NCBI GenBank assembly: GCA_944390005.1
Contig: CALXOJ010000001.1
Span: forward strand, 208,363 to 272,362
DNA length: 64,000 nt
Source: an uncultured Spirochaetota bacterium
Lineage (GTDB): Bacteria > Spirochaetota > Spirochaetia > JAFGXN01
Reading direction: 5' to 3'
In this document: in pieces, positions 60,625-64,000 of the stretch
Layout of the letters: each line of letters begins with the position of its first letter
Numbering within the stretch: the stretch's first letter is position 1
Notes under the pieces: generated by a model
What the model was told of the DNA's origin: nothing
The model's input: only the letters and a program-made list of their open reading frames with translations
Database searches by the model: none
Translations under genes and position numbers: made by a program

Positions 60625-61045
60625 AAGATAGAAATAATTTTCGGTAAATTTCAAACAGAAACACAATTTATTATGGACTCTTTTCTACATACGGTCCGAC
60701 TGTGATGATAAAATCAGAGTTTGAATGCACTTCTGCAGAGACGATCGATTGATTCCGAAACGCAGTCGAAAGATGTATTCATTAGCGGCAAGCGTTGAAA
60801 CAGCGGAGCAGAGAATCGGTTCCAAATCTTTGTGACAAGTGTCAGTTATTTGTCGAGCGGGAGAGGTTTAAGGCTCGCAAGAATGAGATTATTGAAATCG
60901 AATCATCTGCTTAAAGAATCGATTTTCATGAAATCAAAGATCTGAGTTTCGGTTTTTTCATGATCTTGCATCGTGAAAATTGAATAAATTATATTTTATA
61001 ACAAGTAAAAACAATTCTTCTTACTTTAATTTTTTGCTAAATATG
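60625..61045. other. Non-coding region with no recognised gene
   Basis: About 420 AT-rich bases after the rhodanese stop. I find no open frame with a ribosome-binding site and no tRNA-like fold. A short imperfect palindrome near GATTTTCATGAAATC (about 60922-60937) and a CGAGC/GCTCG pair (about 60855-60878) are seen but not convincing. The right end leads into the small-RNA promoter. Confidence 0.5.
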
Positions 61046-61073
61046 TTGACTTTTTCCCGAAATATGCTATAGT
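61046..61073 (+). promoter_or_regulatory. Promoter of the candidate small RNA
   Basis: TTGACT (61046-61051), 16-base spacer, TATAGT (61068-61073); upstream AT-rich tracts. Predicted start at about G61080. Confidence 0.75.
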
Positions 61074-61079
61074 AATAAT

Positions 61080-61162
61080 GTCAGCTGGCTGAAAGTTCAG
61101 TAAGCAGATGGCAAAAAGTATATCCTCCTTTTGCTCCGCGGCGGGTGCCGCGGAGTTTTTTT
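61080..61162 (+). ncRNA. Candidate stand-alone small RNA (about 83 nt) with an anti-Shine-Dalgarno loop
   Basis: The promoter 6 bases upstream and a perfect terminator define a transcript of about 83 nt with no room for a meaningful protein. By eye it folds into three hairpins. The first is a small stem (about 61084-61105, inner pairs CTGA/TCAG around AAGT). The second has stem GCAAAA/TTTTGC (61111-61116 with 61129-61134) and a 12-base loop AGUAUAUCCUCC. The third is the terminator. The loop is complementary to GGAGG-type ribosome-binding sites used by nearby genes. The next gene to the right is on the other strand, so it is not a leader. Comparison with SRP RNA failed (no GGAA tetraloop or GGAAGCAGC). 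Confidence 0.65.
61134..61162 (+). terminator. Intrinsic terminator of the candidate small RNA
   Basis: Perfect 9-bp GC-rich stem (61134-61142 with 61147-61155, loop GGGT) followed by seven T. On the minus strand there is no T-run, so it serves the rightward transcript only. Confidence 0.9.
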
Positions 61163-61201
61163 ATCCGTAAACATAAGGATCAAAAGGAAGCGTTTGAACC
61201 G

Positions 61202-62023
61202 TTAAAAGTCACGGCTCCAAGCGTTTTCACCATCGATTTCAGACGGGGTTAAATGAAACTTTTCGGAAATGCGGGCTGCTTCTGTCCGATCATCTGTCGG
61301 TACTCCGAAAAGCGTTTTGGCTTCGAACGAGCCTTCAAAGGCGGCGGCCGTTTCAAACGGTGATTTTGCGGCAGCAAAAGCACTCTCTTGAGACGGCAGC
61401 TCTTTTTCCCGTTTGCGTAAGCTCCAATCGCGTCGCAGGAGCAGGGATACCAGTTGCTGAGCGTCCCGTTTGGTTCCGCGGATAGCGTACAGTTGTTTGG
61501 AAAGGCTGACCGCTGTGCTGCGGTTGCCGAAAGTGATCAGTTCGGGCATGTGCCCGTAAATTCCGGAAAGTTCTGCCAGACTGCCGAAATGATTCGGATC
61601 AGCATTGATGGCGCGAATAAAATCGTCTTTTGCCGCGGTAATAGCTTCCAGTGAGGAAAATTCCCGAACCATATTGGCGGCAAACATGCGGTTCAACGCC
61701 CGCGCGTACCAAGCATCTGCACAAACCGGATCGCTTGTTGCCGCTTCTTCGGCAAGCAGCAGACAGGCATCTAATCCGGTGCGTTTTTCCCGTCCGGAGA
61801 GAGTGGTATCCGTTAAAAATCGGCGCATTTCCAAGTAAGCGGAGACCGCTTTTTTCTGAGAAGCGCTTTGATTCGGATCGTTCAGAACTTTTTCGGCATA
61901 AACGGAGGCGGCTTCAACGTCTCCGTCAAAGTAAAGTGAATCCAACCGGTTTAACGGTGTCTGAGCATAAGCGGTGAGAAGCGCGGTTGTCAAAAGCGGC
62001 AGAATAAAAAGGTGTTTTCTCAT
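61202..62023 (-). CDS. Exported helical-repeat protein linked to an RND exporter
   Basis: The product has 273 residues with a signal peptide (MRKHLFILPLLTTALLTAYA-Q). The rest is alpha-helical with TPR-like pairs (LYFDGDVEAASVYAEKVLNDPNQ; AWYARALNRMFAANMV; FIRAINADPNHFGSLAELSGIYGHMP). No enzyme motif. The start overlaps the stop of the RND gene by 4 bases, so it is made with the pump. Likely a periplasmic accessory; inference from coupling. Confidence 0.7.
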   Translation of the reverse strand: MRKHLFILPLLTTALLTAYAQTPLNRLDSLYFDGDVEAASVYAEKVLNDPNQSASQKKAVSAYLEMRRFLTDTTLSGREKRTGLDACLLLAEEAATSDPVCADAWYARALNRMFAANMVREFSSLEAITAAKDDFIRAINADPNHFGSLAELSGIYGHMPELITFGNRSTAVSLSKQLYAIRGTKRDAQQLVSLLLRRDWSLRKREKELPSQESAFAAAKSPFETAAAFEGSFEAKTLFGVPTDDRTEAARISEKFHLTPSEIDGENAWSRDF

Positions 62024-64000
62024 TTTTCGGCCTCATTTTCAGCCTTTATTCGGCGTAATTTACGGATTTCCAGTCCTTCGTACAGAATGGGAATTAAGAC
62101 AAGGGTGATCAGCGTTGAGGTCAGCAGACCGCCGAAAATGGCTTGCCCAAGAGGGGCATATACCTCTGCTCCGTTTCCTTTCGAAAACGCGAGCGGCAGA
62201 ACGCCGAAGAGAGTCGTTAAAGTCGTCATAAGAATCGGGCGCAGACGGTTCTGGCAGCCGGCAATGACAGCTTGACGCAGCTCCATTCCTTTTTCGTCAC
62301 GAAGAAAATTGATATAATCGACCAACACGATGGCGTTATTGACGACGACGCCGGCCAAGGCGATGATTCCCAACAGCGCAATCAGCGAAATTTGAGAACC
62401 GAAAATCATCAGTCCCAAAATAACACCGATGAGACAGAACGGAATTGACAGCAGAATGATAAACGGCTGACTGAAACGGTTAAACTGAATAACCATGACG
62501 GCGTAGACAAGAAAAATAGCGACGCCGAGCGCCAGCAGAACATCTTTCAGCATATCCTGGACCAATTTTCCCGCTCCCGTTGTTTGCCATGAAACGCCGT
62601 AGGGGAGATTCATCTTCTCAAGATGGGCGTCCATGCGCGACTGAATGCCGCTTAAATCGTTGGTGTCGGCGAAACCGGTAATCGTAATGACGTTTTTTCG
62701 GTCTTTACGGTCAATTTTTGTGGCAACATTTTCAAAGCTGATATCGGAGAAGGTGGCCAGTGCCGAAAAGCCGTTCATCATGTTTCGAATGTAGATATTC
62801 TCGAGTGATTCCGGCGTGATCGGTTTCTGTCCGTAATCGCTGCTCAGATACATATCGTAAAGCATTCCGTTCTGACTGAAAACGCCGACGTTGGTGCGGC
62901 TGAAGAGAATGCGCGTCGTAAAGGCGGCCTGTTTGCTGTCGATTCCCATCGTTCCCATCCGGTCGGGATCCAGACGGATGACAGCCTCTTTGCTCCCCAG
63001 ATCCATACTCTTTTTTGTCTTGTAAATTTCGGGATCCTGTTTCATTAGATTTTCGATTTGAACGGCAGCCTTGTACATGATATCCAAATCGTTCCCTTCG
63101 ATGCTGACGGAGTAGATTTTATCGCCTCCGGTCACGTAACGCAGCAGATAATCAAGTCCTCCGTTGGTAAAAACCACTTCGCAGTCGGTAATTTCGTCGC
63201 TGATCACCTCTTCCAACTCTTCGATCCACTCCAAAGCTCCTTTTTCCCGTTCCCCGACCGGTTTCAGGAAGAGGGTAGCGGTAATGGGAGCTGCGTTCAT
63301 GAAAAAAACGTTGTCGGTGCGTTCGTTGTTGACGAAGAAGACACGGCGCATTAAGTCTTCTCCCATAATTTCAACGATTTTATTTTCGACTTCTCGGACT
63401 TTTTCTTTCGATTGTTCGAAAGTGTAACTGCCGGGGACCGTCATTTCCATTTTAATGTTAGAGTAGTCTGTCGGCGGAAGGAAGATGACGCCCATCATTG
63501 AGATTAGTAATGCGCTGATCACCAGAATCAATACGGCAAACGCCAAAACTGTTTTACGATGCGTTAGAGCAGCTTCCAAGGCGTTTCCGTAGAAGCGGGA
63601 GAGGCGCTGCAGTCCGGTTTCCACCCAATCGCTGACAATTGTCAGAAACCGGGGCGCTTTAAAACGGTTTTCGCCGCGCAAAAATCGCGCACACATTGCC
63701 GGCACAATTGTCAAAGCACTGACCAACGAGGCGACAATCGAAAAAACCAGTGTCAGTGAAATGTCCTTAAAAAAGATGCCGGCAATGCCTCCCAAAAACA
63801 GCAGCGGGATAAAAACGCAGGCTGTCGTTGTTGTCGAAGCCAGAATAGCGCCGCCGACAATGCGGCTCCCTTCGGATGCCGACTTTTCCGCATCCATTCC
63901 TTTATCGCGTTGAGTAAAAATGCTCTCATACACAACAATCGAGTTGTCGACTACCATTCCGAGAGCAACGGTAATTCCGCACAAGCTGAGAAAGTTGATG
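62020..64000 (-). CDS. RND-family efflux transporter (partial, C-terminal two thirds)
   Basis: The frame runs off the right edge, since the codons before 63984 continue as INFLSLCGI. At least 660 residues are visible. The segment SLCGITVALGMVVDNSIVVYE is the conserved helix-4 region with the proton-relay Asp. The second porter region and the last helices follow, ending in GGLLTSTLITLVLIPILYEGLEI. It belongs to the AcrB/HAE-type family (proton-driven export of drugs, lipids or metals). Substrate unknown. Its membrane-fusion partner and the N-terminus are outside the window. Confidence 0.9.
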   Translation of the reverse strand, partial: INFLSLCGITVALGMVVDNSIVVYESIFTQRDKGMDAEKSASEGSRIVGGAILASTTTTACVFIPLLFLGGIAGIFFKDISLTLVFSIVASLVSALTIVPAMCARFLRGENRFKAPRFLTIVSDWVETGLQRLSRFYGNALEAALTHRKTVLAFAVLILVISALLISMMGVIFLPPTDYSNIKMEMTVPGSYTFEQSKEKVREVENKIVEIMGEDLMRRVFFVNNERTDNVFFMNAAPITATLFLKPVGEREKGALEWIEELEEVISDEITDCEVVFTNGGLDYLLRYVTGGDKIYSVSIEGNDLDIMYKAAVQIENLMKQDPEIYKTKKSMDLGSKEAVIRLDPDRMGTMGIDSKQAAFTTRILFSRTNVGVFSQNGMLYDMYLSSDYGQKPITPESLENIYIRNMMNGFSALATFSDISFENVATKIDRKDRKNVITITGFADTNDLSGIQSRMDAHLEKMNLPYGVSWQTTGAGKLVQDMLKDVLLALGVAIFLVYAVMVIQFNRFSQPFIILLSIPFCLIGVILGLMIFGSQISLIALLGIIALAGVVVNNAIVLVDYINFLRDEKGMELRQAVIAGCQNRLRPILMTTLTTLFGVLPLAFSKGNGAEVYAPLGQAIFGGLLTSTLITLVLIPILYEGLEIRKLRRIKAENEAEK

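Follow-up and report, generated by a model that had tools for sequence, protein, structure and literature searches.

The interval 61046–61162 of the window (the 64,000-nt stretch of DNA from an uncultured Spirochaetota bacterium analysed here) combines promoter-like and terminator-like sequences with a UCCUCC motif between them, which raises the question of whether it encodes an independent small RNA (sRNA) and whether such an RNA would act by pairing with Shine-Dalgarno (SD) sequences. From its conservation and its promoter-terminator cassette we infer, with a probability of about 0.93, that the locus is a real independent sRNA gene; action mainly through anti-SD pairing is somewhat better than an even bet.

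Promoter, terminator and gene context

The sequence-only reading had described a TTGACT-16-TATAGT promoter and a perfect 9-bp terminator with seven T, with no coding frame in between and no downstream gene on the same strand, and this anatomy was found in place. The boxes at 61046–61051 and 61068–61073 are 16 nt apart, with an extended -10 TG in addition, and the terminator has arms CUCCGCGGC and GCCGCGGAG forming nine perfect pairs (61134–61142 with 61147–61155), followed by T at 61156–61162. The start of the RNA would lie 6–8 nt past the -10 box (61078–61081) and its end at the last T, the GC-rich terminator stem beginning some 54 nt past the likely start. The features, compared with the sister species G001 (an uncultured Spirochaetes MAG and the only congener in the genome collection), are the following:

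61046–61051, + strand: -35 box TTGACT (TTGACA in G001)
61068–61073, + strand: -10 box TATAGT with extended -10 TG (same letters in G001)
61080–61162, + strand: candidate sRNA of about 83 nt, putative start (G001 copy 100% identical)
61080–61112, + strand: predicted 5' hairpin, 33 nt
61113–61132, + strand: predicted mostly single-stranded linker AAAAAGUAUAUCCUCCUUUU, 20 nt
61123–61128, + strand: anti-SD UCCUCC, inside CCUCCUUU, unpaired probability 0.98 to 0.56
61133–61162, + strand: intrinsic terminator with a 10-pair stem (9 Watson-Crick), GGGU loop and T7

The locus shows a general feature of trans-acting sRNAs, being intergenic with its own promoter and intrinsic terminator, and it is single-copy, any other match in the genome being 19 nt or shorter. 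A stringent scan of both strands of the 374,587-bp contig (promoter match of at least 10/12, terminator stem of at least 8 perfect pairs, at least 6 T) produced one promoter-terminator cassette, whereas 10 contigs simulated with a first-order Markov model all had none. The one ATG frame, starting at 61108, runs across the terminator; it has no evident SD ahead of it and extends differently in the two species (125 aa in G001, about 20 codons here), and therefore does not count as a conserved gene. No convincing gene follows the sRNA on the + strand, either here or in G001, and the next gene (61202–62023, 273 aa, no Pfam match) is convergent to it.

Conservation in the sister species and range

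Selective identity with G001 argues most strongly for a real sRNA. From the -10 box through the last T (61068–61162), 95 of 95 nt are identical, while the identity is 82.1% at 60990–61045, 81.8% at 61046–61067, 31% (ungapped, barely alignable) at 61163–61204 and 83.3% at 61205–61300. The loss in close relatives that the earlier reading had reckoned with was thus not seen in this congener, which keeps the -10 box, transcript region and terminator unchanged; the -35 box differs towards the consensus. Long aligned stretches of both genomes average 87% identity, and the upstream ABC/GldG block 84.6%. In about 80 kb of aligned DNA, no other wholly noncoding stretch of at least 60 nt is an exact match isolated by diverged DNA on both sides; longer exact runs exist outside called genes, but without diverged flanks. 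Higher conservation than in the flanks is another general feature of trans-acting sRNAs, seen here with one relative only. The sRNA is kept although the genes directly upstream differ between both species. Those in G001 (L038 9514–11805) have relatives in the genome under study (G000) at contig C1 191–2500, with 72% DNA identity; these relatives sit at the contig start, so the neighbourhood appears to have been rearranged while the sRNA stayed.

The range of the sRNA looks restricted to this spirochaete genus. BLAST against 60 genomes and a covariance model run on 395 genomes of the class recovered the two congeners only, with 116.7 bits for each and 24.5 bits for the next best match; those of the weaker matches (24.5 bits or less) that were inspected turned out to be coding DNA, a tRNA-like end or terminators without relation to the sRNA, and were rejected. 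There was no sRNA match in G002, which represents the family's other genus, and no exact match in viral contigs, and the neighbouring protein, searched in the genome contigs, was found in G001 only. A loose seed pattern was uninformative, matching nearly every genome. The match to a known Rfam family of other function that the earlier reading had considered did not appear: cmscan returned none at the gathering cut-off and nothing significant at E ≤ 10.

Other observations concern the two genomes at large. At 61301–62500 of the window the 273-aa gene and the RND gene end are 98–99.4% identical, against about 85–87% for the two species otherwise, which suggests that this DNA was exchanged recently, the breakpoint lying near 61290. 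Outside the window, G000:C1 carries a dispersed repeat of about 120–170 bp with copies 81–89% identical (276600–276800, 306955–307123, 140823–140979 and 96877–97004), which also occurs near G001:C7 2050–2210.

Predicted fold and anti-SD pairing

The minimum free energy (MFE) of the candidate sRNA is -32.8 kcal/mol (z = -3.35; no shuffle was equally good), and its MFE layout consists of the 33-nt 5' hairpin, an unpaired 20-nt linker and the 10-pair terminator. The 5' hairpin plus linker without the terminator had modest stability (z = -1.14). Both known sequences are identical, with no covariation between them, and the hairpins are predicted ones. A GCAAAA/UUUUGC hairpin, proposed earlier to hold UCCUCC in its loop, was not favoured by folding: it is a minor conformer forming about 15% of the time (pair probabilities 0.13–0.17; -31.8 versus -32.8 kcal/mol), and much of the other pairing within the linker is probably due to a shifted AAAAG/CUUUU helix. 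The exposure of UCCUCC itself was borne out by the predicted fold, with the linker as its site: the motif is largely unpaired in the MFE fold and in the GCAAAA/UUUUGC conformer, and UAUAUCCUC is predicted to be open in both of these and in the shifted AAAAG/CUUUU form.

Target pairing was scanned on contig C1, where GGAG lies upstream of 180 of the 361 mechanically called genes. The linker paired with leaders at a mean of -9.84 kcal/mol versus -7.65 kcal/mol with coding interiors, as any anti-SD sequence would. At -16 kcal/mol or below it reached 11 leaders, compared with 13.2 ± 3.6 for flank-shuffled controls keeping UCCUCC, and conserved pairings among the 74 alignable leaders numbered 6, compared with 11.05 ± 2.3 for UCCUCC controls. 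The extended seed complement was not enriched either (11 genome matches versus 15 for the reversed control). GldG, suggested before as a target, proved a weak candidate: its leader pairing of -16.0 kcal/mol (rank eleven) falls to -11.0 in G001 and so is not conserved, and the linker did no better on leaders than the UCCUCC-only controls. Of the orphan spirochaete anti-SD sRNA first proposed, the sRNA and its exposed UCCUCC are supported, while the hairpin-loop placement is not favoured and the GldG target is weak. Three copies of AAAAGCAGGATATACCT at G000:C3 230064–231989 lie in an apparent protein repeat (KAGYTFEGWY-like, resembling Listeria-Bacteroides repeats); they were rejected as targets, the seed-complement match in this coding repeat being probably coincidental. 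The anti-SD mode is plausible, the modelled pairing of the linker being generic and singling out no target.

The usual bacterial 16S rRNA 3' end carries CCUCCUUU. The likeness of the sRNA to this tail is 8 nt only and refers to the textbook sequence; 16S rRNA was not found in assemblies G000–G002. Such a match at an exposed site is, judged post hoc, unlikely to be accidental, and the anti-SD stretch is the most exposed stretch in the prediction; both points speak against the foremost alternative, a real conserved sRNA that works through its 5' hairpin loop, through AU-rich linker pairing or by binding a protein, with UCCUCC being incidental. This alternative agrees with the equal conservation of all 95 nt, in which UCCUCC is not singled out (the RNA being identical in both species, conservation does not distinguish the seed from the rest), and with the lack of target preference past the generic UCCUCC core. 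It is possible, at clearly lower odds than the anti-SD mode.

Less favoured alternatives, known small RNAs and proposed mechanism

It is unlikely that the sRNA acts on the convergent RND-efflux operon, whose minus-strand readthrough would be fully complementary to it, forming a cis antisense pair or a sponge. In favour of it, 40 nt separate the sRNA from the end of the 273-aa gene at 61202, the sites listed for 61046–61204 include no terminator-like one on the minus strand, and G001 has the same convergent arrangement; however, the stretch that separates the two lacks conservation. Slightly less likely still is that, in a bacterium with neither Hfq nor ProQ, the sRNA imitates the 3' tail of 16S rRNA and, by competing for SD sequences generally, slows translation initiation globally instead of regulating a few mRNAs. 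Some orphan short RNAs are tracrRNAs or what is left of an attenuator. A decaying leader or attenuator, a tracrRNA-like RNA or a short protein gene is nevertheless very improbable here: the ATG frame at 61108 would fit the last of these, but its end is not conserved, no + strand gene lies downstream in either species, the missing second genome match leaves no CRISPR repeat partner in sight, and perfect conservation argues against decay. Least probable of all is that the identity marks no functional RNA but a short gene-conversion tract beside the exchanged block, which begins about 140 nt away (61301–62023 is 99.4% identical), as the identical stretch runs exactly from the -10 box to the last T, the DNA on either side of it is diverged, and the promoter and terminator greatly exceed chance expectation.

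The candidate anti-SD sRNA has counterparts of similar design elsewhere. AbcR1/AbcR2 (alpha-r15, Rhizobiales) resemble it in the exposed anti-SD UCCUCC(C), the intrinsic terminator and the stand-alone gene (PMC3712013), and in Agrobacterium the UCCUCCC in their 5' loop has been shown to mediate target recognition (PMC3712013). However, these alphaproteobacterial RNAs come as two tandem copies, carry Hfq-binding signatures and have three hairpins with the anti-SD in the 5' loop, in contrast to the spirochaete RNA, where UCCUCCU lies in the linker that joins its two hairpins; the AbcR/alpha-r15 covariance model gave no match at gathering score and no significant one at E ≤ 10, and their partner Hfq had no model match in the spirochaete genome. 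The C-rich regions of RoxS and FsrA in Firmicutes bind mRNA targets, and RsaE/RoxS and FsrA act in species for which no RNA hub protein of the Hfq kind is known (PMC8216469). The resemblance to RsaE/RoxS drawn earlier would be one of function and does not extend to family membership: the spirochaete sRNA has one UCCUCC site, located in the linker, and no Rfam match, RsaE/RoxS having no cmscan match at gathering score and being absent among the matches at E ≤ 10. Ref84 (RF02846), an Enterococcus sRNA, similarly has a CUCCUU-containing linker directly ahead of a GC-rich terminator; as a family assignment it was rejected, since the match is not significant (28 bits, where the cut-off is 52; E = 0.2). 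By this comparison the RNA plausibly represents a new family of a known kind, working like AbcR and RoxS and belonging to neither. Catalogued spirochaete sRNAs are few, one review table listing 6 distinct annotated ones for the phylum (PMC9029176), and among the papers searched none joined anti-Shine-Dalgarno, small RNA and Treponema.

In the proposed mechanism, a sigma-70-type promoter would drive a stand-alone trans-acting sRNA of about 83 nt specific to the spirochaete genus, with the 5' hairpin protecting its end and the terminator both stopping and stabilizing it. The linker GUAUAUCCUCCUUUU would offer the anti-SD seed to purine-rich ribosome-binding sites, and seed pairing would lower translation of one or several mRNAs. 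Neither the Hfq nor the ProQ model had a match in the 97%-complete genome, while two proteins passed the KhpA/B KH cut-off (KH_KhpA-B); the sRNA may need neither Hfq nor ProQ, and may act with KhpA/KhpB or with no chaperone at all. Conserved and clearly bounded, and located in a lineage where the searches for Hfq and ProQ came up empty, this candidate would let the independent origin of anti-SD sRNAs, and their action without these two proteins, be tested.
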